A stretch of 20,190 nt of DNA, taken from the IMG/VR virus record IMGVR_UViG_3300032073_004819, positions 1 to 20,190 of that record; one strand, given 5' to 3'. The notes beneath the pieces are model-generated. The model was not told where the DNA came from and ran no database searches. It worked only from the letters and a program-made list of their open reading frames with translations. Below, in pieces: positions 2,673-19,845 of the stretch (its first letter is position 1; every line of letters begins with the position of its first letter). The stretch is from a virus. The position numbers and the translations under genes are program-made.

Positions 2673-4250
2673 CTACTCCTCAATAATGGCATAATTCGTA
2701 GTCAAAAGAGTTCCCGCTGCTGATACAGCGTTCCTTAGAGCGTTCTTAGTTACCTTCGCAGGATCAATTATTCCCGATGTGTACATGTTCGTTGCCACAC
2801 CATCGAGAAAATTAAATCCCACATCGAATTGCTCGGCATCAATAATCTTATCGACATCCTGGTAGGTATATCCAGCGTTTTGTGCCATCGCTGCGATGGG
2901 TGACTGCAGAACATGAAGGAAGATTTCTGCAGCATATTGTTCATCCTCAGTCAATTCTAACGGCGATACGTCCTCTGAGAGCGATTTAGATATGCGATAG
3001 AGGGTAAGACCCCCGCCCGGAACTAAACCCTCTTGTTGAGCAGATCTGACCGCCTCTAGTGCGTCTTCTATTCGGTGCTTCTTCTCCACCATCTCCACTT
3101 CGGTAGGCGCACCAACTCTGATAATAGCCACACCGCTAGACAATCTTGTTATTCTGTTCTGTAGTGCCTCGGCGTCGTCCATGGATTGAGATGTATTGAT
3201 TTGCGTTTTTATGTCTTCGATTCTAGAGTGCATCTCACCGTGATCTCCGCCGCCGCCAACGATAATGGTACCGTACTTAGATATTTCAATCGTGTGGCAG
3301 GTACCAAGGTCATTAATGGTTACGTCACGCACCTGATCTCCGAGCATCGTCCTAAAATATTTAGCGCCGGTGGCGATTGAGAGATCCTCCATCATTGATC
3401 GACGTTCTTCGCCATAACTCGGAGACTTGACTGCAGTGACCTTCATTGATCCACGCACAGAGTTCATGATTAGTGCCGACAATGCTTGTCCCTCAACACT
3501 GTCACAAATAAAGACTACAGGTTTCTGTTCTCTTGCGGCGATCTCCAAGACTGGCAAAATAGTCTGCACTTGATCGACTTGTGCATCGCACAGGAACAGT
3601 AGCGGGTTCTCATACCTACAGATAGATCTCCTCTCGTCAGTTATAAAATAGTTTGATAAATATCCAGATTGAAACCTAAAACCCTCAACCAAGTCAAGCG
3701 TTGTTTCGGTGGAGCGTCCGTCCTCAATTGTAACAGACCCCCCTTTACCAACTTTGTCCACTGCTGTCGCTACAAGATCTCCAATGACCTGGTCGTTATT
3801 CGCAGAAATCTTTGCGACGAATGCGACGTCATCTGCGCTAGAAATAGGTCTAGATATCTCTTCTATCTTTTCGCACACCATATCACATACTTTGTCTAGT
3901 CCACGCTTAACCTCGACCGGACTAAGACCTTTATCAATAAGATCTAGTGACTTTGAAAATATCGCCCTCGCAAGTATGGTAGATGTAGTAGTGCCGTCAC
4001 CTGCGTCTGAATTGGTCTTTTCCGACGCCTGCTTTACAATCTCGACTGCTGCGTCCTGGAAAGGGTCGTCAAGACTCACAAACCTAGCAACCGTTACGCC
4101 ATCTTTTGTGATTATTGGTTTACCATCCTTATTCCTAAGAATGACGTTGCGACCCTTGGGTCCATATGTTGACGCTACGTTGTCGGCGAGTTTGTTGACG
4201 CCGTCAAGCATTAGGCGATGGAGTTCCTTACCGTCAGAAAATTGCTTCAT
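2673..4250 (-). CDS. groL: GroEL-type chaperonin, large subunit
   Basis: 525 residues, near the bacterial length of about 548. Group I chaperonin signatures are present: STYGPKGRNV at 27-36, ITKDGVTVAR at 47-56 (D50, aligned with E. coli D52), AGDGTTTS at 83-90 (D85, aligned with D87), and RIEDALEAVRSA...GLVPGGG (D396, aligned with the hydrolytic D398). Thus equatorial ATPase residues appear intact and the ring should be active in folding. The C-terminus ends in TNYAIIEE, without the Gly-Gly-Met tail of most bacterial GroELs. It is transcribed from its own promoter at 4285-4313, with an AGAGG ribosome-binding site. No groES lies next to it; a GroES-like gene is 15 kb away at 19534-19845. It is a phage copy, presumably for capsid or tail protein folding. 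Confidence 0.97.
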   Translation of the reverse strand: MKQFSDGKELHRLMLDGVNKLADNVASTYGPKGRNVILRNKDGKPIITKDGVTVARFVSLDDPFQDAAVEIVKQASEKTNSDAGDGTTTSTILARAIFSKSLDLIDKGLSPVEVKRGLDKVCDMVCEKIEEISRPISSADDVAFVAKISANNDQVIGDLVATAVDKVGKGGSVTIEDGRSTETTLDLVEGFRFQSGYLSNYFITDERRSICRYENPLLFLCDAQVDQVQTILPVLEIAAREQKPVVFICDSVEGQALSALIMNSVRGSMKVTAVKSPSYGEERRSMMEDLSIATGAKYFRTMLGDQVRDVTINDLGTCHTIEISKYGTIIVGGGGDHGEMHSRIEDIKTQINTSQSMDDAEALQNRITRLSSGVAIIRVGAPTEVEMVEKKHRIEDALEAVRSAQQEGLVPGGGLTLYRISKSLSEDVSPLELTEDEQYAAEIFLHVLQSPIAAMAQNAGYTYQDVDKIIDAEQFDVGFNFLDGVATNMYTSGIIDPAKVTKNALRNAVSAAGTLLTTNYAIIEE

Positions 4251-4320: not shown

Positions 4321-5547
4321 TTAAACTTGAGTTGAGTTTTGCCCAATGCGCCTAAGTGGTTTTGACATTATCCTTATGGATAAACTGGCAGACTTTATAA
4401 TCGTGATTCCATGCACTTCTTCTGTTTCAATCTCTACCCCCATGGATTTAAGATAATCCTCCTTGGTGGTTCCCTCAGGGGGATTTACAAAATTAATCTG
4501 CGTGATCTCCGCTGCAGTAAATGGTATTTTGTGTCCATTGGGTCCAAACCTACTGTGGAATACAGGTTCGTGCTGACCTGTAGGTAATTCAGGTTTTTGA
4601 TATATACTATCAGCAGAGATAGTGACTTCAGACTCCCCCGTCTTCTTAACATTGAAATCACCAAACACTAAATATTCTGCTGCGTCAGGACCTGAACCAT
4701 AGACCATTGCAGTCCTCCTGGCGGACCGTTTCTTCATAGGTCGGTGGAATCCAGCAGTTGATCTTTTTGGACCATCCTTAGAAAACAATATATCCATGCG
4801 CCACTTTCTAATTGCCGCCTCCATGAAGTCTGATGCGTCTTTTTTATCACTAGAAACAAGGTTTTTATACGCTTCGAATCCCGGTGCCTTGTGGGAAATT
4901 CCCGTGCCAGGCACAATTCCATCCTTACTGGCAGCGTAAAAATCAGACATGCCAAAGCGTTCCGGATTCTTCACGAAACCTCCCACATTTTCATACCTAC
5001 TTCCACCCATAACAATAGTACCTGGTGTTTTCATACTTATCCCAGCATCAAAAAGTTTTCTATTCAAGTCGTTAAGGTACTCTTCTTCGATAGCATCCGA
5101 CTGCTCTGAAGCAGTACGTAAATACTTAACTCTCTTACCGGGTTGAACGCCTGTTAAGGTTATGTTTTCGTCGTCTAAAAAAACCGCACCGGTGAGAAAC
5201 TTTGGTCTCTGGTTGCCTAGTCTGTTGGCGTCTGAAATTAAAGAAATTAACTCTTCCTGACTGTAGGATTTCTTGGTGAAATAAAACCTCAAGACCAACC
5301 CATCTGCCGACTTGAATTGTTTGGCGAATATACGTCCCGATGATACGGACTGCAGTACCTTGATGGTCTTGTAGTTTTTGTACTTCCCGAGAGCATCAGA
5401 GACGATTGGGAATACCAACTTCTTCAGTTTGCTTGCAGAGTACAGTGTCGGGTCAACGTAATAAAAACTCCTTACGCTCCTTACCGTACCCTCTGAAACG
5501 ATTGACATCATTTCGACCATCTGCTCTAGTAGTACTTGTCTATTCAT
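4321..5547 (-). CDS. Unknown protein of the clpP operon
   Basis: 408 residues, not recognised. It is soluble-looking and has no signal peptide. The N-terminal 150 residues look alpha/beta (YNY-rich 'KYKNYKTIKVLQSVSSGRIF', 'GLVLRFYFTKKSYS'). The centre (about 165-300) is Gly/Lys/Arg-rich with aromatic residues, and the C-terminal third holds a PELPTGQHEP stretch and 'PEGTTKEDYLKSMGVEIE', which looks like a small folded subdomain. Its ATG overlaps the clpP stop as ATGA, so it is translated together with ClpP. A structural protein or a ClpP substrate/partner are possible readings, neither shown by sequence. Confidence 0.75.
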   Translation of the reverse strand: MNRQVLLEQMVEMMSIVSEGTVRSVRSFYYVDPTLYSASKLKKLVFPIVSDALGKYKNYKTIKVLQSVSSGRIFAKQFKSADGLVLRFYFTKKSYSQEELISLISDANRLGNQRPKFLTGAVFLDDENITLTGVQPGKRVKYLRTASEQSDAIEEEYLNDLNRKLFDAGISMKTPGTIVMGGSRYENVGGFVKNPERFGMSDFYAASKDGIVPGTGISHKAPGFEAYKNLVSSDKKDASDFMEAAIRKWRMDILFSKDGPKRSTAGFHRPMKKRSARRTAMVYGSGPDAAEYLVFGDFNVKKTGESEVTISADSIYQKPELPTGQHEPVFHSRFGPNGHKIPFTAAEITQINFVNPPEGTTKEDYLKSMGVEIETEEVHGITIIKSASLSIRIMSKPLRRIGQNSTQV

Positions 5548-6227
5548 AGATAATCGTCTGCAATCCCATACTTGATAGCTTCCTCTGCAGATAAATAGAC
5601 GTCGACGTTGTTTAAAAGTAATTTTTTAATCTTTCGCCTGGACAGTTTCGTGCACGAACAGAGGTAGTCGAAGTACATATCTTGAAGTTCCTTCGTCTCC
5701 CTCATTTCGTTTTCTACATTGGGAAAAGATCCGTGATGACCGCTGATCACACTGTGGAGCATAACTCGACAATTCCGGCCGATCTTTCTCATACCCTTGG
5801 TTCCGCTGGCAAGCATTAACACTCCCGCAGACATTACCTTACCAATACCAACAGTCTCAATATCACAACCCCTCTTGATCATTTCCATTATATCTAGGAT
5901 AGAAAACATATCAGAAACTACGCCGCCATGGGTAGATATATACACCCTGAACGGTCTGATAACCGACATGGCCGTGCCATCATCCGCTTCAAGGATATCT
6001 TCCTTTGTGTGGTTGAAGTACAGCATCGCCTGGACAACATCTGATGCCATCCTCTCATTAATATCTCCATAGCAATTTATTGAACGAATATCATCTTTAC
6101 CATCAGACTGTCCGCCGATGTTATTGATGATATACAAGGGTTGCCCCAACTCCTCAGACAAGGCGCTGGTGGTATCAACAGGAAGCGACTGGTCCTTTTT
6201 CTTTTTGTCAGATGACTTTTTTGGCAT
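5544..6227 (-). CDS. clpP: ClpP-family serine protease
   Basis: 227 residues. After a Lys-rich, disordered-looking start (residues 1-25) comes a ClpP fold: INCYGDINERMASDVVQAM (the usual 'l.g.i.....a..v.a.l' segment), YISTHGGVVSDMFSILD, VGIGKVMSAGVLMLASG with nucleophile S133, RVMLHS with H158, and NNVDVYLSAEEAIKYGIADD with D209. The triad spacing (25 and 51 residues) closely follows E. coli ClpP (25 and 49). It could degrade host proteins with a host Clp ATPase, or act as a phage maturation (prohead) protease, since ClpP-like enzymes do both in phages. No Clp ATPase is in the window. It starts 20 bases inside the gene before it and overlaps the next by 4. Confidence 0.93.
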   Translation of the reverse strand: MPKKSSDKKKKDQSLPVDTTSALSEELGQPLYIINNIGGQSDGKDDIRSINCYGDINERMASDVVQAMLYFNHTKEDILEADDGTAMSVIRPFRVYISTHGGVVSDMFSILDIMEMIKRGCDIETVGIGKVMSAGVLMLASGTKGMRKIGRNCRVMLHSVISGHHGSFPNVENEMRETKELQDMYFDYLCSCTKLSRRKIKKLLLNNVDVYLSAEEAIKYGIADDYL

Positions 6228-7892: not shown

Positions 7893-8230
7893 TATATATC
7901 TTCATCTCCTCTCTCAATTAAGTCGAAAACAAAGTCAATATCACACTCAGTTAGACCGAGATCTTGCAGGATTTGGTTACCTTCCTGCATGTCCTCCTTT
8001 GTCTTTGCTATCTTTCTCTTACCGATTCTTGCACTCCTCTCTTTCACTTCTGTCACAAATGATATCAAGTTGGGGTCGTTACTTATGTATCCAGTTATGA
8101 TCGCTCTGAAAAACTGTGACTTGGATAACCCATCTCGGCGCAACCTCACCACTAGGTCCGCATGTCGCTTGTCAGTGTCCGAGAACATTATTGCCTTCTC
8201 GTCACGACCGTATCCGCCACGATAACTCAC
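7892..8230 (-). CDS. Conserved phage protein, possible ribbon-helix-helix DNA-binding protein
   Basis: 112 residues. The start [30 protein letters not shown] is of a type I recall from T4-like cyanophages, where it has no assigned function. Residues 26-50 (LVVRLRRDGLSKSQFFRAIITGYI) fit a ribbon-helix-helix pattern: a strand, then two short helices, with basic residues. The C-terminus is acidic and helical. The start codon is GTG at 8230, overlapping the stop of the enzyme gene upstream as GTGA, with GGGGGTAAG just before it. Adjacent to the mini sigma factor, so a regulatory pair is plausible but unproven. Confidence 0.75.
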   Translation of the reverse strand: MSYRGGYGRDEKAIMFSDTDKRHADLVVRLRRDGLSKSQFFRAIITGYISNDPNLISFVTEVKERSARIGKRKIAKTKEDMQEGNQILQDLGLTECDIDFVFDLIERGDEDI

Positions 8231-9225
8231 CTTACCCCCAAAATGTGCGTACTGCTCTCTACTTGCGATGCTGAAGTTTGTACGATAAATTCAGCACATG
8301 CTTGTAGTTGAGTTATATTTCTTGCACCACTGTAAGATAGTCCGGACCTGATGTTCTGCGTGAGATCATTTATTATATCGATAACAGACCCCTTGTGAGA
8401 TATTGTTGTAGATATACCCTCCAATGATCTTGCTTCACCTCTCCAGTCCGTCTGAGCTTCAACTGATGCCATTCCCCTGTATACTTTATATTTATTTCCG
8501 TCATTCCCCTGGAACACCTGACCGGGACTCTGATCCGTTCCCGCCAACATTGAACCAAGCATGACAAAGTCTGCACCAGCAGCGAGGGCCTTGACAATGT
8601 CCCCGGCGGTCTTAATTCCGCCATCGGCAATGATTGGTACCCCATCCTCATACCCACAAGTCAACACAGATTCGAAAGTTGGAACTCCATGACCTGTCTG
8701 TATCCTAGTAGAGCAAATTGATCCGCCACCAATACCGACTCTCACAGCGTCTGCACCCCATTCCGAAAGTGCCTTATACCCTTTGGGCGTTGCGACGTTG
8801 CCAGCAATTATAGTTATTCCTTCCCCATACTTGTCTCTCAGCGACTTTAAAGCTCGCTCAACCAAACTATGGTGCCCGTGAGCGACATCTAAACAAAAGA
8901 TGGAGACTTTTGAGTGCTCATGTAGATGAGCGACCCTTTCCAAGTAATCTCCACTGGCGCCGATTGCTGCAGCAGCATTAAGTGGTGTCATTTGCGCCTG
9001 TTCAGATATTGAACAGTACCTATGCGTCACGGCAAGTCCTCCGAGTTCACCTATCGCTGAAGCCATCTCTGCACCTGTAACTGTATCCATTGGACTGGAT
9101 ATGATCGGTAGTTGATATCGGCGGTTGCGAATATTTCTAGAGATATCAACCTCAGACCTGGACTCGATGTTACTAAACTGTGGTGCCAACAGCACGTCGT
9201 CAAAACTATGCGTCGGTCTTCTCAT
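8227..9225 (-). CDS. IMP dehydrogenase / GMP reductase family enzyme without CBS domains
   Basis: 332 residues, a TIM barrel: [10 protein letters not shown] at 7-16, SSPMDTVTG at 43-51, AGNVATP at 141-147, the catalytic loop GGGSICSTR with C171 and T173, [11 protein letters not shown] at 200-210 and [10 protein letters not shown] at 249-258. There is no CBS insertion, as in GMP reductases and some IMPDHs. The flap reads [13 protein letters not shown], lacking the Arg-Tyr base of IMPDH (GRVPYKG type), which favours GMP reductase: GMP + NADPH to IMP + NH3. The GMP-reductase glutamate is off by one (E256), so I keep the call at family level. It overlaps the zinc-ribbon gene upstream by 20 bases. 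Confidence 0.92.
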
Positions 9226-10972: not shown

Positions 10973-13900
10973 CTATGCTAATATCTTAAACATTTTTCTA
11001 ACCGACCTTGTACTAAATCCCCACTGAGCATCCCAGTTCAATCTAGCCATATAAGGTCTGTTAATATAAATCTTGTCCTTATTGGGGTCCACACCCCAAC
11101 ACTTAATTGTATTTTCTTCCGAATTAGTGTCAATCACTTTTACCAGATAAAACAGTTTACCATTTTTCGTCTTCTTTTGCAAGACTTCTCTTGGTATAAA
11201 CCAACAAACTTGCAATTCTTGATCAAACTCCGAAATAGGGGGTATCATCATTTCATCGAGGCGAGACTGAAGCGCTTCGTCGACAACAGAACTGACAGGG
11301 AAAACACCAACCAAATTGACAAGATGTTGTAACTTCTCCGCCTCAGTGAAATCTCCTTCGGGTTCAAATCGTTCTATGTTTTCAAGCAGGTTCTTCTCCT
11401 TTCTTGGGCGTTCGACAGCAACTGCGGACCAAAAGTGCTTTAATCCCGAAAATCTTTCATCCATGAGGCAGTTAAGTGCCTGACTTAGTGTCAACGCATT
11501 AACCGCCTTCTTATTCAGTTTGGAATATACAATATTCTCGTTAAATAGAAACTCCTCTACCGTACTAAACGGTCTGTTTTCTATGATTTGTGCAATAGCG
11601 GTTGACCCCAAACCTTTAATTGACGACAAGGGTTGTATAAGAGTCTTACCGTCTTTGCTGATCTCCCACCTCACGCCAGACGTGTTAACGTTTAGTGGTT
11701 CAATGTTATATCCATATGATTTCGCAACATTGATTGCTCGCTCCTTTCTCTTGTCCGGTTCCTTATCTAAAAATGCTGCCAACCAGCATTCAGGATAATA
11801 GTTAAGAAGATAAGCACACTGATAAGACAGCACGCAATAGGAAACAGCGTGAGACTTATTGAAACCATATCCAGAAAAATATTCAAACTTTTCCCACAAT
11901 TCTTTCGCTTCATGTTGCTTCAACCCCCTTTCTATACATCCTCTACGAAATTTATCGTAGATCTTATCTTTTTCTTGTTGTACGGCACCAGTTCCCTTCT
12001 TGGTGAGCAACTTACGTAGTTTGTTACCCTCATCTAGGGACAGGTTTTTGCCAAGTTTGTGGGCAAGCATGGCAATCTGTTCCTGAAAGATGAGAAATCC
12101 ATAAGTTTCAGAGGTTATGTCACGCACCTCTTCACTCAAATATTCCACATCTCCCGGATTCTCTTTCGCCCCTATGTACATCTTATCCACACCTGCTGAC
12201 AGTGGTCCTGGGCGATAGATCGACGTGATTGCCGCTAGGTCTGTGATGTTGTTTGGTTTAGCGTGCTTACAGAAAGATTGAGCACCACCTTCGGTAAATT
12301 GAAAAATACCTGCCCACTTACCTTCATGAAATACATTTTTCCATACCGCATCGTCCGCCAGGTCAATTCTCTCTGGATGTAAATTGGTCTCATAAAAAGA
12401 TTTTATGTCCTCAAATGTAGGATTTTCGATATTCTCGTATCGCACAAGTATGTGTCTAATTGCATCTTCCATCATTCTCAAAGATGCTAATCCGAGAATG
12501 TCAAATTTGATAAAACCCATGGGTTCAAGGTGTCGAACGTTTTGACCCTCTGACCAAGGGGTTTGTCGTACACCGCCTGAGTTGATAAGAGGCATCCACT
12601 CATTCAGGTTCTCCCCAATAACGACGCCACCGGCATGTCTAGAAGCAGACCTCGTTTGACCATACAGTTTGTTTACATGTGTTTCCACTTCCGGGTACTT
12701 TTCCAGAAACTTCTGTAAAGACTCTGAGTATTGCATGAGTTCTTCAAACGTAGGATTGTACACACCAGCGGTTATACCGTGCGCTTTTTTTGCCAAAGGT
12801 GTTGCCTCATAGACCATCTTGTTTGTAACTGCGTTAACCTCAGAAAACTCTATCTTGTAGAACTTTGAGATATCTTTCACGAGGGATCTAAGTTGCAGTG
12901 TATTCCAATTTGTGATAGGCACCACAACGTTATCGCCCCATTCTTCGATAAGTTTTTCTTTCAGGACCATCGGGTCGGAAACGTCATAATCGATATCGGG
13001 ATATCCCGTGCCACCTTTTGTCATAAAACGCTCAAATTGGAGTCCGTAACGAATCGGATCAATTTGAGTGATACCTAAGGCATAGGCAACCAGAGAACCC
13101 GCCGCAGAACCTCTTCCTGGCGCTGTGAGTTGCATTCTCGTTGCCTCTTCTGCAATCTTCTTCATAGTCAAGAAATACTTGCTAAACCCACGATCCTCAA
13201 TCACATTGACTTCATATTTAAGTCTCTCTATGTACTCATCCTTGTCATGAAACCCTTTCTCTTTGGCACCAGCTACGCATAAGACTGCTAATGCTTGACC
13301 GGCAGACTGTCCTTCGGGCACAACAAAATCAGGAAGTCGTACAGTATTATCTGGCATGAATTCATCTATCAGATCGTGAGCGATGTCGTACGTACTAGTA
13401 ATCGATTTAAGCACTAAGTCGTCATCGTATTCAACACCCGCTTCCGCTGAGTACTTCTTGTAACTCTCCCACATTTGTTGTCCATTCTTAGGGTATAGTT
13501 CATACCCAATTTCCTCGACATCAATGGGCAGTTCATCACTTAACCACTCCACCTTTCGACCAAGAAATCCAAGGCGTTTATATAACTCTCTATCCTTCCA
13601 CGCTTCTGGTGAATAGTAGTGTGAGTCCGCTGTGGAAATCAATTCGATACCAAACTCATAGTGCATCTGAATGATAAACTGGTTCAGCGTATGCTGTTCT
13701 GGAACATTGTTCCATTGCAATTCACCGTACCACCTGCCACCAAAGATAGACTGCATCTTCTGCGTTGTCTTGCGCATAGCGTCAAGAACGGCGTCCTCAC
13801 CATCATCTCGATTTTGCCAATAGTCTCCAGCATACACACCACCGAGGCATGCCGACGCTGCTATCACCCCTTCGCTGTGCTTTCTCAGCAAGGCATAATC

Positions 13901-14404
13901 AATGCGAGGATATCGATAAAAGTTATCACCCGTGTAAGACTTTGATATCATCTTATAGATATTTTGAAGTCCCTTCTGGTTTTGTGCTAAGAGAATCATG
14001 TGACTTCTTCTGTTCAGCGCTGACTTCATCTTCTTTTTAGAAGCTTCGTTCTCCACCGTTGTGCCAGACTGAGCATCCTTCAGTTTTGATCCCCGCTTAT
14101 TCTTGGTCTCCTCCCTTGCCTTATCGTATTCCTGTTTCCAGTTAGCAATGCTTGGCACAAAGTATGCTTCACAACCAAAAATCGGTTTAAAGTCACGACC
14201 CTCGCTCTTCATCTTCTTTGCGTGTAGTACCTGATATGCCAAACCATTTGCATTGCCATGATCAGTCAGGGCGAGAGCGTCCATCCCGTTTTCATATGCA
14301 AAGTCCATGTGCTGCTGGGGATACCCCAAGGCATCAAATATGGATCCCGCAACAGAGTGTGCATGCAACCCAACAAATGGGATCGACGTTTGTACGTCAG
14401 TCAT
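10973..14404 (-). CDS. dnaE: DNA polymerase III alpha subunit (DnaE)
   Basis: 1143 residues, close to bacterial DnaE (about 1160). Domains: PHP (1-290) with HAH (14-16), TDHGN (47-51), GCE (77-79) and a later ADSHYY, so metal ligands look mostly intact; a charged insert at about 88-130; the C-family polymerase core with TAPGRGSAAGSLVAYALGIT, PDIDYD (D470, D472) and IKFDILGL (D635), the three catalytic aspartates; and a C-terminal OB-like segment (LQVCWFIPREV…). It synthesises DNA 5' to 3'. Most T4-like phages carry gp43 (family B) instead. No clamp, exonuclease subunit or tau is in the window. The end of the nucleotidyltransferase-like gene overlaps its start by 8 bases. Confidence 0.97.
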   Translation of the reverse strand: MTDVQTSIPFVGLHAHSVAGSIFDALGYPQQHMDFAYENGMDALALTDHGNANGLAYQVLHAKKMKSEGRDFKPIFGCEAYFVPSIANWKQEYDKAREETKNKRGSKLKDAQSGTTVENEASKKKMKSALNRRSHMILLAQNQKGLQNIYKMISKSYTGDNFYRYPRIDYALLRKHSEGVIAASACLGGVYAGDYWQNRDDGEDAVLDAMRKTTQKMQSIFGGRWYGELQWNNVPEQHTLNQFIIQMHYEFGIELISTADSHYYSPEAWKDRELYKRLGFLGRKVEWLSDELPIDVEEIGYELYPKNGQQMWESYKKYSAEAGVEYDDDLVLKSITSTYDIAHDLIDEFMPDNTVRLPDFVVPEGQSAGQALAVLCVAGAKEKGFHDKDEYIERLKYEVNVIEDRGFSKYFLTMKKIAEEATRMQLTAPGRGSAAGSLVAYALGITQIDPIRYGLQFERFMTKGGTGYPDIDYDVSDPMVLKEKLIEEWGDNVVVPITNWNTLQLRSLVKDISKFYKIEFSEVNAVTNKMVYEATPLAKKAHGITAGVYNPTFEELMQYSESLQKFLEKYPEVETHVNKLYGQTRSASRHAGGVVIGENLNEWMPLINSGGVRQTPWSEGQNVRHLEPMGFIKFDILGLASLRMMEDAIRHILVRYENIENPTFEDIKSFYETNLHPERIDLADDAVWKNVFHEGKWAGIFQFTEGGAQSFCKHAKPNNITDLAAITSIYRPGPLSAGVDKMYIGAKENPGDVEYLSEEVRDITSETYGFLIFQEQIAMLAHKLGKNLSLDEGNKLRKLLTKKGTGAVQQEKDKIYDKFRRGCIERGLKQHEAKELWEKFEYFSGYGFNKSHAVSYCVLSYQCAYLLNYYPECWLAAFLDKEPDKRKERAINVAKSYGYNIEPLNVNTSGVRWEISKDGKTLIQPLSSIKGLGSTAIAQIIENRPFSTVEEFLFNENIVYSKLNKKAVNALTLSQALNCLMDERFSGLKHFWSAVAVERPRKEKNLLENIERFEPEGDFTEAEKLQHLVNLVGVFPVSSVVDEALQSRLDEMMIPPISEFDQELQVCWFIPREVLQKKTKNGKLFYLVKVIDTNSEENTIKCWGVDPNKDKIYINRPYMARLNWDAQWGFSTRSVRKMFKILA

Positions 14405-15215
14405 CTAATTTCCTTTCTTGCTTCTTGAAAGCGCTTGTAAAACAAAACCTATATTTTGGATATATGTCGATGGGATCGATCCACATATCTTTGTATCCGG
14501 ACCATTGCTGTATGTTATGATACTTATCTACTCCGCAAGTCCTTATATTCTTTCTTACTATATCATTATCTAAAATTAAGTCAAGAGTAAAATCAGAATT
14601 TACACTATTTTTTTTAAATAAATAAGAGCAGTGCTTGACCTCATCCACGCCCAAACAGAACCCTAAGTTTTCGCCGTCCAAAGCAGTGAGTCCATCATGC
14701 TCCAGAAAGAAACTTCCCTCTTCCTTGATTAGAGACCTCTTGACTTCCGGATTATACACTCCGTAGGGACTTGATATGTAATATCGATGAGGCGCAACCC
14801 ACTTTGATATGTTACTACTCACATGAAAACTAGCATGTATACCATCGATGACAGACACGCCCAGGCCTGACTTATCCTGGTGTTTGAACGAAAGCGGTGC
14901 ATACATAATAGGCACCACCCTCCTGTTCTCTTGAGGGTATTTTGAGTGATGCGAACGTTCGTAATCGTGCATGTTCATGACAAATTCTCCACAGATCTTT
15001 TTCAACAAGAGTGCCTGCGAGTCATCACAAACAACCCAGATCGTGTTACATCCCGCATATGCACATTCCACTATCGATCTTTGAATGTTGTAAAATCCGT
15101 TAGCAATTGGCAGAGCCGATGGTGGCAATATCAAATCGATGTCCGACTGGACTCTAGATATTGGTATGATTCCTGCGATATGTTTTGAGGATGATGCCTC
15201 TGTCATGGTGCTCAT
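14397..15215 (-). CDS. Nucleotidyltransferase-like protein (GT-A fold suspected)
   Basis: 272 residues. The start 'IAGIIPISRVQSDIDLILPPSALPIANGFYNIQRSIVECAYAG…TIWVVCDD' has the GT-A nucleotidyltransferase pattern: strand, loop, then 'P..lPiang...iqr.i..c..aG...iwvv'. I recall the same type near replication genes in marine phages. The usual nucleotide-binding GxGxR loop is not visible, so activity is open. The rest (about 90-272) is not recognised. GGAGAGGG lies before the ATG at 15215, which therefore overlaps the end of the upstream gene by 62 bases; the N-terminal fold requires this start. Confidence 0.7.
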   Translation of the reverse strand: MSTMTEASSSKHIAGIIPISRVQSDIDLILPPSALPIANGFYNIQRSIVECAYAGCNTIWVVCDDSQALLLKKICGEFVMNMHDYERSHHSKYPQENRRVVPIMYAPLSFKHQDKSGLGVSVIDGIHASFHVSSNISKWVAPHRYYISSPYGVYNPEVKRSLIKEEGSFFLEHDGLTALDGENLGFCLGVDEVKHCSYLFKKNSVNSDFTLDLILDNDIVRKNIRTCGVDKYHNIQQWSGYKDMWIDPIDIYPKYRFCFTSAFKKQERKLDD

Positions 15216-15918
15216 AATACTTTACCCTCTCCGTACTTTCATAAACAACCTCTTCCATTGGCATGACAACCCGCTCCTGCACAACCGGTTTTGGTTTGCG
15301 TGGACCACGGGAAGGCGATATCAGAGGTCTGATCAACCCACTCTCATTTAGCAGCGATTTCTCTACATATATCCTAGACATAGTATCAGAATAGTCAAAG
15401 CTAGTCAACTGCTCTTTCGATAAAAAAGAAATACTAACAATCTTTTTCTTCCCGTAAAACCTCACCTCCTCAATAAAGGATTCAGGTATCCTAATGTCTT
15501 TCATTTTCTCAACGTTACAGAAAGGCAGTTTCATCATGTCAAGCACACGAAACACGCCCACATTGTCTCGGCGTTTTATGTCCAGATTCGTATTTATCGA
15601 ATCGGACGGAAAGAGATGACACATATCAAAGGTCGCCTCAGAGCGTCCAAACCGAACAGTGTCATCCTCTATACGTACAGAGAATGGTTCCTCCGGGTTG
15701 ACAACTAACCCTTTCATGGATATTAAAAATCTTAAAAAACTCCACGCATCTGACACTGTGTGGAATTCCTGCCCCTCTATTTCCAGGGGAGGTTCTAACC
15801 TGTCGATGAAACTTGGAGGACTGAACTTGGTTAGCACAATCTTTGTGCCGTCGCAATAACTTTTGATTAATGCGTATAAACAATGACCAACAATTAATCT
15901 ATTGAATGTCAATAGCAA
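15154..15918 (-). CDS. Unknown protein preceding the nucleotidyltransferase-like gene
   Basis: 254 residues, not recognised. The start is TTG (15918, or TTG at 15912), following the stop of the lipoprotein gene with 10 bases overlap; no strong ribosome-binding site is visible. The start 'LLTFNRLIVGHCLYALIKSYCDG' looks like a strand and helix. The C-terminal 60 residues (SRGPRKPKPVVQERVVMPMEE…) are Pro/Lys-rich and may be a flexible tail. Soluble by composition. Confidence 0.7.
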   Translation of the reverse strand: MLLTFNRLIVGHCLYALIKSYCDGTKIVLTKFSPPSFIDRLEPPLEIEGQEFHTVSDAWSFLRFLISMKGLVVNPEEPFSVRIEDDTVRFGRSEATFDMCHLFPSDSINTNLDIKRRDNVGVFRVLDMMKLPFCNVEKMKDIRIPESFIEEVRFYGKKKIVSISFLSKEQLTSFDYSDTMSRIYVEKSLLNESGLIRPLISPSRGPRKPKPVVQERVVMPMEEVVYESTERVKYYEHHDRGIILKTYRRNHTNI

Positions 15919-17981
15919 ACACCGTTCGCATAGTCATACCGTTTGCTGTGGGACACTAGAGCAAAAGGACTCGATAAATAATCGTTCATGCCCATCTGCA
16001 CTTCGGCGCCTGCACATATATCATCGATTATGCTCATCAGATCATTGTACATTCTTTGTTGATTTCTCGAAAGTTCAAAAACAAATCCGCCTGTTGGATT
16101 AGCGTATACTTCCCACCTATTAGAATACAGTCCTTCTGAAAAAACATATAACTTCAAATTCGGTGTAGCAGTCAACATATCCAACAGTTGTTGATTTGTC
16201 ACATTCGGTGACAAATACGTCTGCTCCTCCTCATCAGTAAAGAGTATGATTATTCGATCAGCGTTAGGGCGCCAATTTAATACGAACCTATCAAGTTCTG
16301 GTTCTGATCCTATTGAAGGCAGGGACCACGCTGCACGCCTTCGGTCGTAAGAAGGGTTGCCTGTTATGTTATAGATCGCCAACATCAAAGCATCCTTCAT
16401 CATCTCCTTGCTCGTGCCGCCAAACTCTCCAGCGTTTGCAAGTTCAATCAGGAATTGTTCGAACTCTGATATGTTAGCATTTAGAATCAGCATTTCCTTT
16501 GACGTGCCGCCGAACATTTGGGTTGGATGTTCTTTCGGGCCAATTACCAAACCCCATTTTATATTGTCCTCTGCAGAAAAGTGTTGTGCGAAGCGGTTCA
16601 GTGCTGCACTCACCGCTCTAATATAATCTTCCATTGATCCAGACCAGTCAATTATAAATAAGATATCTGTGTCTGGTATCTCTTCCCCATAGTCTGTTAT
16701 TCCATCACAGTCATTATCTGACCCATCACAAACTTCTTCTGTTGGTAAAACCTCACCAGAACAAAAGTCTACAAGAACATTGCCCTCATTGTCCTGCGCT
16801 GCCCACTGCCCTCTGTCACAGTATTGCTGTCCATTGGTGCAGACACCTATACCAACCGTTTCTGCTGGTCCTGAATAGCAGTCCCTGAATAGGTCCTCGT
16901 CTATTACCGTGTCACAGTCTTCATCAAAGTCGTTACAAACCTCTGGATTGATAGGTAGTCCAACAAGCGGGTCGCACTCCTGATCTGGGATCTGGATTTC
17001 TTCGAACCAGTGACAAGGAGCAAAGCACTCTGACATACTTGTCACGGTGCACTCCTCATCTTCACACTCACATGTCTTAAATCCCAATCCGCACGACAAG
17101 GGTGGTTCCATGCAAGGTATCAGGGCGCCTACTATCTCCGGCGGGCACTCACAACTCACACCCTCATCAATAAGTTGATCGCAATCATTGTCTTGTCCAT
17201 CACACTGCTCTACGGACGGTTGCCGAGCAGTACAACTAACCCACTGACCAGACTGGCAGGTCTCTATCCCCCTGTTGCAGGCAGTACTGCACTCACGAAC
17301 CAACTCTTCGTCGACGATATCATCACAGTCGTTGTCAAGACCGTCACACATATCCTGAGGGACATCACCACAACCGTTACAGACGTTTCTTTTGTTCTCA
17401 TCTGTATTGCCATCGCAGTCGTTATCTACAAAATCACAAATCTCATCTGATACAACACAAGTTATACACTCCCCATAATACAACCTACCTTTATCACACT
17501 TGACTTCTTGAGTTCCACTAACTCCATCCACCTCGCAGTCGTAAATAAGTACAAACTCTTCGTTGATACCCGGAGGACAATCAAACGCATGTTGACATGC
17601 TGACTCGTAAATTATTTCAGCGGGTGGACAATCAAGGTCAATGTTCCTGTCGCAAGGTACCAGATCTTCACCACAAATATCTAGGACGGCTGTCTTTGCC
17701 TGGATTTCAGTACCAAGCGGTGGGCAATACCAGGTCTGCCGCTGACAACAACGAGGAAAACACTCACAATAGTCTTCGTCTATGTTCCGAACGTCGGCGC
17801 AGGGGTCGACATAAGCGTCGACGGTGATGTCTGGGATTTCTATAATTTGCACATCTGGAGACAAAAGGTCTACACTTATGCCTACCTGGAGATCCCTCAC
17901 CTCTCCTTGCTGTGGGACGGAATCAGCACAACTAGCAACCGTCAGTAACAGTATCGTAAACTTGCTTAACTTTCTTAACAT
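15909..17981 (-). CDS. Lipoprotein with five MopE-type metal-binding repeats and a von Willebrand A domain
   Basis: 690 residues. The N-terminus MLRKLSKFTILLLTVASC is a lipoprotein signal with lipobox VASC, so C18 would be lipidated after cleavage. Residues 75-180 are cysteine-rich. Five copies of a MopE-type repeat (C-D-x-x-D-N-D-C-D-x-x-x-D-E) lie at residues 180-196, 210-226, 258-274, 347-363 and 416-432. A vWA domain follows (about 437-630) with MIDAS residues DWSGS (D445, S447, S449), a GGTSKEM threonine, and FTDEEEQT. Ca2+, Cu or Mg2+ binding and surface adhesion or host interaction are likely; no exact role is known. The start is 50 bases inside the transglycosylase gene, with AAAAGG before it. 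Most such proteins come from myxobacteria-like genomes. Confidence 0.9.
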   Translation of the reverse strand: MLRKLSKFTILLLTVASCADSVPQQGEVRDLQVGISVDLLSPDVQIIEIPDITVDAYVDPCADVRNIDEDYCECFPRCCQRQTWYCPPLGTEIQAKTAVLDICGEDLVPCDRNIDLDCPPAEIIYESACQHAFDCPPGINEEFVLIYDCEVDGVSGTQEVKCDKGRLYYGECITCVVSDEICDFVDNDCDGNTDENKRNVCNGCGDVPQDMCDGLDNDCDDIVDEELVRECSTACNRGIETCQSGQWVSCTARQPSVEQCDGQDNDCDQLIDEGVSCECPPEIVGALIPCMEPPLSCGLGFKTCECEDEECTVTSMSECFAPCHWFEEIQIPDQECDPLVGLPINPEVCNDFDEDCDTVIDEDLFRDCYSGPAETVGIGVCTNGQQYCDRGQWAAQDNEGNVLVDFCSGEVLPTEEVCDGSDNDCDGITDYGEEIPDTDILFIIDWSGSMEDYIRAVSAALNRFAQHFSAEDNIKWGLVIGPKEHPTQMFGGTSKEMLILNANISEFEQFLIELANAGEFGGTSKEMMKDALMLAIYNITGNPSYDRRRAAWSLPSIGSEPELDRFVLNWRPNADRIIILFTDEEEQTYLSPNVTNQQLLDMLTATPNLKLYVFSEGLYSNRWEVYANPTGGFVFELSRNQQRMYNDLMSIIDDICAGAEVQMGMNDYLSSPFALVSHSKRYDYANGVCY
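16401..16514 (-). repeat. Duplicated GGTSKEM segment within the vWA domain
   Basis: The peptide FGGTSKEM is coded twice, at 16491-16514 and 16401-16424, 90 bases apart. The two copies use different codons (TCA against AGC for Ser, TTC against TTT for Phe), so the sameness is at the protein level. The second copy fits the conserved MIDAS threonine position; the first is extra. Confidence 0.7.
16686..17444 (-). repeat. Five MopE-type repeats in the lipoprotein
   Basis: Five 17-residue repeats, core C-D-x-x-D-N-D-C-D-x-x-x-D-E, at irregular spacing (13, 31, 72 and 52 residues apart). The fourth copy differs most (EVCNDFDEDCDTVIDED) and the last ends in DYG instead of DE. These loops resemble calcium- or copper-binding motifs (Pfam MopE type). 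The linkers are rich in Cys and Gly. Confidence 0.85.
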
Positions 17982-18408
17982 AATACAACCTTTTGTAAAA
18001 TCCTTTCTCTCTAATGCATTTCATTCCTGCGTTATAAACACACAACCCCTTCTCAACATTCCCCTTCGCATAAACTCTTATGCTGTAAGAGAGAATTCTG
18101 GCACCTGCTTCAATCGCAACTTTGGGATTCTTGAGTTGTTTGCAGGTATATTTCTTGCCCCCTGTCTCTTTGCCGCCGGTCCACTTAGGTATTACCTGAG
18201 TTAACCCACAAGCGTTTGCACTGCTCACAACGTGAGGGTAAAAAGAACTCTCAACAAACATAACAGACGCTAACAACGTTGGTTCGATTTTGTTAATTTT
18301 TGCCTGCTTCTTTATCTCACTCTCATAACTACATATGTTCGCTTTCTGTGTAGGCGACAAGTCGTAATGCTGCGAGAACAATAAACAAAGCGACAGTGCA
18401 TGAACCAT
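17932..18408 (-). CDS. Secreted lytic transglycosylase (SLT family)
   Basis: 158 residues. The SLT fold is clear: SVMFVESSF with catalytic E53, ANACGLTQVIP (the 'G.mQ..p' motif), and YNAG. It cleaves the MurNAc-GlcNAc bond of peptidoglycan. Residues 1-12 (MVHALSLCLLFS) are hydrophobic, so a short or marginal signal peptide is likely. There are seven cysteines (8, 26, 67, 89, 123, 131, 158), which suggests disulfides in the periplasm. The start (TAATG overlap with the previous stop) is preceded by AAGAAGAG. It overlaps the lipoprotein gene by 50 bases. It is likely the endolysin or a virion wall enzyme. Confidence 0.9.
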   Translation of the reverse strand: MVHALSLCLLFSQHYDLSPTQKANICSYESEIKKQAKINKIEPTLLASVMFVESSFYPHVVSSANACGLTQVIPKWTGGKETGGKKYTCKQLKNPKVAIEAGARILSYSIRVYAKGNVEKGLCVYNAGMKCIREKGFYKRLYYVKKVKQVYDTVTDGC

Positions 18409-18830: not shown

Positions 18831-19534
18831 TACTTCTTTTCCATTTTGCATTTAATGTATGATTCCACTGAGTGCGGAAAGTGCCTTCTAACTATGTCCA
18901 AGCACGCTTTGGCGACTTGCTGTATCTCCCACTGCGCACCCTCATGAACTCGCAATGAAATGAATTTAAGAAGGTTGTGCAAATTTACAGTGCCATAATA
19001 CTGAGTGTAAAGGTTTTGCGGCAGGACCCCCCTAGCTTGCTCTCTGCACACCCCAGAATCAACCAATGCATTGTATAACGATACACTGTTGGTATTGTGC
19101 TTCGCAACAGCATTTGAGGCGGTCTCAAACCCACTGGCAAGATATGCAGAGTCCAAAGTAGGGTTGATCAAATCATCACTACTTGCTTGACGATTTGACT
19201 TATGTTGCGTCCTGAACTCGCTCGGAGAATAGAACTTCATATCCACACTAGTATATCGTCTACTAATCTCATTATATGCCCAAGTACGATGTCTGTGGTG
19301 CTGACTACGTATAAAGAGAGGCACTGTGAACCTAAGTGTGATAGCACAGTGCTCAAAAGGAGAACTGTGATTATGTTCCATGAGGTAGTTGATAAGTTTA
19401 ACATCTTTGTCATCTACTTCTTTCTTTTCTGATCCGAAAGAGACCCTTGCCGCATTAACGACCGACAAATCAGTACCCATATGCGAAATGTATTCCACCG
19501 CACCGTATCCATCACCAAACAATTCTACCTTCAT
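18830..19534 (-). CDS. thyX: Flavin-dependent thymidylate synthase ThyX
   Basis: 234 residues. The ThyX signature RHRTWAYNEISRRY is at 81-94 (R-H-R-x7-S), with EHNHSSPFEH at 53-62 before it. The enzyme makes dTMP from dUMP with methylene-tetrahydrofolate, FAD and NADPH, and needs no separate dihydrofolate reductase. It pairs with the dUTPase at 9481-9942. GTG at 19537 is a possible start, but AGAGG sits 6 bases before the ATG at 19534, which overlaps the co-chaperonin stop (TGATG). Confidence 0.96.
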   Translation of the reverse strand: MKVELFGDGYGAVEYISHMGTDLSVVNAARVSFGSEKKEVDDKDVKLINYLMEHNHSSPFEHCAITLRFTVPLFIRSQHHRHRTWAYNEISRRYTSVDMKFYSPSEFRTQHKSNRQASSDDLINPTLDSAYLASGFETASNAVAKHNTNSVSLYNALVDSGVCREQARGVLPQNLYTQYYGTVNLHNLLKFISLRVHEGAQWEIQQVAKACLDIVRRHFPHSVESYIKCKMEKK

Positions 19535-19845
19535 CACGGTCCTCTATATATGCCCAACACATAATTTTCCAATATAACGTAATGCTTCCTATTATCGACG
19601 TCAATCTCTTCGATCATCGTCTTGTCGATAACAATCTCACTTTGAGGATTCCTTCCATATTTCAACTTTCGCAAATCCTCCTTACAATCACTCGCAACAT
19701 TGACAACTGTTGCCTTGATGTATCTCGCTTCTTCCTTTTTAAAGTCATCTGGCAACAGTACGCCTGAATCTGTCTCGTCTTTTTCAAAATGCGGAACAAT
19801 AGATACATACCTGTTAATTGGTTTGAATATTCTTATCTTACTCAT
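19534..19845 (-). CDS. GroES-like co-chaperonin
   Basis: 103 residues. The layout follows GroES: a first strand (IFKPINRYVSIVPHFEKD), a mobile-loop-like DSGVLLPDD at 26-34 with hydrophobic VLL (compare IVL of GroES), then ATVVNVASD, a variable stretch at 55-70, IVIDKTMIEEIDVDNRKHYVILENYVLGIY at the end. No single GroES signature is exact, so it is a divergent family member. It would cap the phage or host GroEL ring. It is 15 kb from groEL and is co-transcribed with thyX. Its start overlaps the preceding gene by 8 bases and has no strong ribosome-binding site, so coupling is likely. Confidence 0.82.
   Translation of the reverse strand: MSKIRIFKPINRYVSIVPHFEKDETDSGVLLPDDFKKEEARYIKATVVNVASDCKEDLRKLKYGRNPQSEIVIDKTMIEEIDVDNRKHYVILENYVLGIYRGP

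Follow-up and report, generated by a model that had tools for sequence, protein, structure and literature searches.

What does a phage gain from a large lipoprotein that joins MopE-type repeats to an integrin-like head? This question is raised by an IMG/VR virus record of 20,190 bases, analysed at its full length and referred to here as the window, whose likely genes all lie on the minus strand. A preliminary description of the locus had reported a lipobox, five MopE-type repeats and a vWA domain whose MIDAS is complete in one 690-residue protein, and all of these features are present (Table 1). The lipoprotein is probably exposed on infected bacteria, where it would most likely alter the binding options of the cell or of a rival phage.

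Table 1. Features of the lipoprotein and of its neighbourhood in the window.
Feature	Position	Strand	Basis or remark
MopE-repeat and vWA lipoprotein gene, ATG start, 690 aa	15909..17981	-	ORF list, Pfam, model
Signal peptide and lipobox, residues 1-18, predicted acylated Cys18	17928..17981	-	conservation across 45 copies
Cys-rich N-terminal region, residues 61-175	17457..17801	-	cysteines conserved; model beta-rich
MopE repeat 1, residues 182-195, CDFVDNDCDGNTDE	17397..17438	-	sequence, Pfam
MopE repeat 2, residues 212-225, CDGLDNDCDDIVDE	17307..17348	-	sequence, Pfam
MopE repeat 3, residues 260-273, CDGQDNDCDQLIDE	17163..17204	-	sequence, Pfam
MopE repeat 4, residues 349-362, CNDFDEDCDTVIDE	16896..16937	-	sequence
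MopE repeat 5, residues 418-431, CDGSDNDCDGITDY	16689..16730	-	best Pfam stretch 415-430
vWA / integrin beta-I-like domain, residues 434-659	16005..16682	-	pLDDT, Foldseek
MIDAS motif D445-W-S447-G-S449	16635..16649	-	D445, S447, S449 invariant in 45/45
MIDAS D583	16233..16235	-	invariant in 45/45
C-terminal tail ending V-C-Y	15912..16004	-	penultimate Cys in 64/72 distinct copies
SLT lytic transglycosylase, 158 aa	17932-18408	-	PF01464, E 4e-17; often absent from relatives
FAD-monooxygenase-fold protein, 254 aa, member of conserved block	15154..15918	-	model pLDDT 93, Foldseek
Conserved 272-aa protein, no family match, directly upstream of PolIII alpha	14397..15215	-	
Phage DNA polymerase III alpha, phage-group marker	10973..14404	-	phrog_405, E 1.5e-216
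GroEL and GroES	2673-4250 and 19534-19845		
Clp-type protease	5544-6227		
IMP dehydrogenase	8227-9225		

Anatomy and predicted fold of the lipoprotein

Profile searches bore out the MopE and vWA assignments. In the protein scan, PF11617 (Cu-binding_MopE) was matched with 50 bits against a cut-off of 27 (E 3.5e-13) in three significant stretches. PF00092 (vWA) scored 20.7 bits in the same scan, slightly below its cut-off of 23.8, and 26.2 bits, above the cut-off, in the genome search. The vWA identity is settled by the fold search, which matched integrin beta-I/vWA domains. NCBIfam held no match for the lipoproteins.

The protein contains 48 cysteines. Four of the repeats read CDxxDNDCD and one reads CNDFDEDCD, and their D-x-D-x-D-G-x-x-D/E pattern suggests that the loops are Ca2+ sites. 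The five metal-type loops would suit a role in metal scavenging or envelope maintenance, with the Asp-rich repeats storing or delivering Ca2+ or Cu and stabilising the outer membrane until burst. As such a role leaves the invariant MIDAS head unexplained, we regard it as unlikely.

An n/h region and a lipobox with an invariant Cys make up a predicted diderm-type lipoprotein signal, which terminates in VAS-Cys18. Among 45 aligned copies, lipobox position -1 is S, A or G in 43, position +2 is mostly A, S, T or N with no Asp among the residues listed, and position +3 is D in 37. In E. coli, a residue other than Asp at +2 directs a lipoprotein to the outer membrane. By this rule the phage protein is predicted to be sorted to the outer membrane, where it would be exposed at the surface. 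Cys18, D445, S447, S449, M450, E526, D530, D583 and E584 are invariant in the same alignment. In the region of the MIDAS threonine, position 523 is T or S in 32 of the 45 copies, the remainder possibly being off by one in the alignment. The C-terminal end '[ILMV]-C-[YFL]' is conserved in the window (15912-15935) and in relatives, and its aromatic end resembles an outer-membrane beta-signal.

An AlphaFold model of the lipoprotein had a mean pLDDT of 82.6, with values of about 86-96 in the vWA domain. The solved structures matched best by the head in Foldseek were integrin beta-3 and other beta subunits (PDB 3nif, 3ze2), with E values down to 2e-7, and vWF A domains (A1/A3) were also among the matches. 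Against viral models the top match was a 266-residue protein (E 2.5e-20). A profile search of PDB sequences yielded marginal matches to integrin beta-8 (E 0.0085). According to the model, the head adopts an integrin beta-I/vWA fold with a DxSxS...T...D metal site. The integrin beta-I domains 3nif and 3ze2 are thus its nearest structures and share the MIDAS DxSxS, but they are eukaryotic, lack MopE repeats and are only about 14% identical to the phage head. Because lipobox, disulfides and MIDAS occur together, an envelope-anchored adhesin is the best reading of the protein, and we consider it probable that it acts as a surface adhesin during infection.

Distribution and genomic slot

A first scan of viral contigs retrieved 24 relatives of the lipoprotein, several of them on contigs of 144-190 kb. 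In IMG/VR, 453 stretches encoded relatives at a tblastn E <= 1e-3, a number that is an upper bound since MopE repeats by themselves could score; the best 80 of the 453 were retained. The G+C content of the lipoprotein gene (45.6%) is close to that of the window (43.5%), so that no composition break exists at the gene. Together, these observations rule out a single-assembly artefact or a one-off insertion. PF11617 was found in none of 14 control genomes, and a dN/dS of about 0.05 between the L005 and L006 lipoproteins indicates purifying selection. Controls, selection and the even composition all argue that the lipoprotein is not a chance occurrence.

That the gene is phage-borne, as the preliminary description held, was supported by the virus record itself and by a 146-kb relative that has a contractile tail sheath as well as a major head protein of the T4 type. 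The assignment of the group to phages relies on these two proteins and on the phage PolIII alpha in the window. The nearest cultured matches of head and sheath were Flavobacterium phage immuto, Rhodothermus phage RM378 and Microcystis phage Mel-JY01, all with less than 50% identity. Among the cultured phage records of INPHARED, neither the lipoprotein nor the 272-aa neighbour had a match.

In most members of the early set, the lipoprotein gene was flanked on one side by GroES/ThyX, to which SLT was sometimes added, and on the other by two conserved genes and then PolIII alpha. The occupancy of this slot was surveyed with PolIII alpha as an independent bait. In each of the 32 records whose PolIII alpha reached 72% identity and whose upstream flank was long enough, the lipoprotein occupied the same slot, which agrees with a position kept in related phages. 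Its distance upstream of PolIII was 1.5-2 kb and larger where a second copy intervenes (L226). In a sister group (PolIII 64-68% identity, about 22 records with flank), the slot contained no lipoprotein. In nine of ten sister records inspected, the block existed without it: GroES, in many cases together with ThyX or SLT, was accompanied by the neighbours of 254 and 272 aa and by PolIII. A search of 12 whole sister-group records found the lipoprotein elsewhere in two. Furthermore, the usual neighbours were all missing at 12 of 94 lipoprotein loci with varied surroundings (e.g. L108, L120, L122, L133, L170), and two tandem paralogues were present in L009, L012 and L013.

The slot survey and these other contexts indicate a gene that is fixed in one group and mobile among phages. 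Within an uncultured group of T4-like phages, the lipoprotein gene belongs to the core set. A recent bacterial acquisition near the window was ruled out, as the lipoprotein is common to phages with diverged PolIII.

Small predicted lipoproteins adjoin the large one in non-canonical contexts (L108 7667-7963, L120 6822-7415, L170 9926-10537, L009 12565-13164). The phage contig L009 also carries a 492-aa ORF (16597-18075) that by eye is phosphoenolpyruvate carboxykinase-like.

The gene is surrounded by GroEL, IMPDH, dUTPase, PolIII and ThyX genes and does not belong to the tail/head block. This location among DNA-metabolism genes suggests that the lipoprotein is probably produced ahead of lysis, and it speaks against both a structural role in the virion and a function restricted to lysis. 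Domains of the vWA and MopE types would suit extracellular binding by an adhesin decorating the particle, and a copy on another contig (L273) adjoins large uncharacterised genes. However, virions of tailed phages are assembled in the cytoplasm, whereas the signal peptide with its invariant lipobox Cys directs the lipoprotein to the envelope, and the usual slot lies among replication genes. A virion-associated adhesin is therefore very improbable.

The preliminary description had also proposed that the protein aids lysis like a spanin. As it had noted, the lipoprotein gene lies directly downstream of a secreted SLT transglycosylase gene, with a 50-base overlap in the window, and in L124 and L132/L133 the two genes are likewise paired away from the usual slot. 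Lipoprotein and transglycosylase might thus breach the envelope together, the former as a spanin-like or lysis-timing factor. SLT, however, is adjacent at only 19 of 70 distinct loci, which leaves a spanin-like role poorly supported, and sister phages possess SLT without the lipoprotein. Spanins consist of a small outer-membrane lipoprotein and an inner-membrane partner, which bridge the periplasm. In contrast, the phage protein is a Cys-rich chain of 690 residues with a globular vWA head and no constant partner gene. The lysis proposal is accordingly judged improbable, although the pairs away from the usual slot leave a slight chance of a link.

Two of the neighbours deserve mention. Among the Foldseek matches of the 254-aa protein is gp47/NGTO (8z79), an FAD lyase of phage thymidine hypermodification; this FAD-type neighbour and the nearby ThyX and dUTPase are hints of thymine hypermodification of the phage DNA. 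The 272-aa protein is present in nearly all related phages, and its N-terminus 'AGIIPxxG' resembles a nucleotidyltransferase by eye only.

Exchange of lipoprotein alleles

Identities of lipoprotein and PolIII were only loosely coupled (Spearman 0.50 over 1,717 pairs, which share members and hence are non-independent). Some pairs have PolIII proteins of 97% identity and lipoproteins of 48-49% (L134 and L208, 49%), and others are 76% identical in PolIII and 85-86% in the lipoprotein (L217 and L007, 85%). Comparison of L003 with L011 revealed a sharp-edged island of divergence that extends from the lipoprotein start through two downstream genes between flanks of 84-94% identity. The corresponding region of L003 (8006-11576) looks as if lipoprotein and downstream genes had been exchanged as one cassette. 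In the comparison of L202 with L208, the divergence is nearly confined to the lipoprotein. The best reading of these patterns is that recombination has replaced lipoprotein alleles in a fixed slot, and has done so without regard to the replication genes.

Two further interpretations were discarded. L004 combines an L003-like left part with an L007-like right part, and the junction lies in or next to the lipoprotein gene. Its reading as a natural recombinant was set aside and not counted as evidence because it may be a chimeric assembly. The PolIII comparisons had also suggested exceptionally fast evolution of the lipoprotein. Genome-wide comparison of G002 and G013, however, gave 76% identity for the lipoprotein against a gene median of 77%. 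PolIII is slow, and with lipoprotein divergence at about the median there is no exceptional arms-race rate.

Proposed function and comparison with known systems

The preliminary description had called such proteins typical of myxobacteria-like surfaces. Their domain content supports this link, and the architecture is bacterial in flavour. Among the matches listed in the genome scan, bacterial MopE-repeat proteins came mostly from Myxococcota or 'Deltaproteobacteria' assemblies. Most of the listed bacterial proteins with both domains have vWA followed by MopE; in L100 and L055, MopE precedes vWA. The Paraliomyxa miuraensis ORF of L100 (7623-9851) has a lipobox-like N-terminus, several MopE repeats and then a vWA domain, which matches the phage profile weakly. 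A vWA-only profile, run against 12 genomes and against 331 from the phylum of L100 in search of a close bacterial donor, gave weak, partial matches only.

Two chromosomally encoded bacterial proteins are the nearest functional analogues. Bd0875 of Bdellovibrio bacteriovorus is a surface adhesin with lipobox and vWA/MIDAS whose function needs the MIDAS (PMC11003981). Compared by description only, it shares lipobox and vWA/MIDAS with the phage lipoprotein but is described as having a cap and, in place of MopE repeats, a beta-rich domain of small size (PMC11003981). Myxococcus CglB, by the account in PMC12282271, is a vWA surface lipoprotein adhesin with MIDAS that is essential for gliding; it belongs to the same MIDAS vWA lipoprotein type, again as compared by description only.

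Such analogues suggest that the phage protein modifies adhesion or motility, so that the infected cell sticks to or releases particles, neighbours or surfaces and progeny are freed near new hosts. The occurrence of MopE and vWA proteins in Myxococcota and the lipobox-MopE-vWA order in Paraliomyxa agree with this idea, whereas the poor match of the vWA domains from the 331 genomes does not. Since the nearest analogues, Bd0875 and (by the account in PMC12282271) CglB, are MIDAS lipoprotein adhesins, altered adhesion stands close behind superinfection exclusion, although by itself it is rather doubtful.

Superinfection exclusion is our first choice, held tentatively and at somewhat less than even chance. 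The alleles are swapped as expected of a partner-dependent envelope protein, and a precedent exists in T5 Llp, a phage outer-membrane lipoprotein that is made during infection and excludes superinfection (PMC9586334). Exchange of this sort would be natural where the partner of a gene is variable, and would also suit an adhesin that meets varied surfaces.

In the proposed mechanism, the phage would produce an outer-membrane lipoprotein during infection, which would localise to the envelope. Its presumably acylated Cys anchor would carry a stalk rich in disulfides, in which about five Asp-rich loops are probably occupied by Ca2+. The stalk would be capped by the integrin-like vWA head, whose MIDAS metal may hold a protein or glycan ligand by one of its acidic groups. 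As a guess, the head could engage either a receptor on the cell surface or the phage tip that binds such receptors. Further phages would then fail to adsorb productively, which would amount to superinfection exclusion and reproduce the effect of T5 Llp with a different protein.

More speculatively, and in our view possible but unlikely, an exchangeable integrin-like MIDAS adhesin on infected cells could serve the whole phage group as a dedicated surface-reprogramming module whose allele swapping tracks rival phages or host surfaces. To our knowledge, few phage proteins act on the outer face of the infected cell. A gene held at one position across a widespread group of uncultured phages, yet exchanged between alleles, points to strong partner-dependent selection on the envelope of infected cells. 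With its mutable metal site, the lipoprotein offers a concrete test of adhesion reprogramming or rival exclusion by lytic phages.

Llp is small and periplasmic, binds FhuA and jams this TonB-dependent transporter (PMC9586334). It is quite unlike a 690-aa adhesin, which weakens the precedent for a superinfection role. Having neither vWA nor MopE, it compares with the phage lipoprotein in its way of working alone, with no homology claimed, and size and domains place the latter outside the Llp-type class. The literature searched contained no phage MopE-vWA lipoprotein. The protein is of the MIDAS lipoprotein adhesin type, now phage-borne and undescribed in the literature and records searched. If the surface-reprogramming reading is correct, these phages would have their own equivalent of the MIDAS adhesins of bacteria and would control superinfection or adhesion in a new way.
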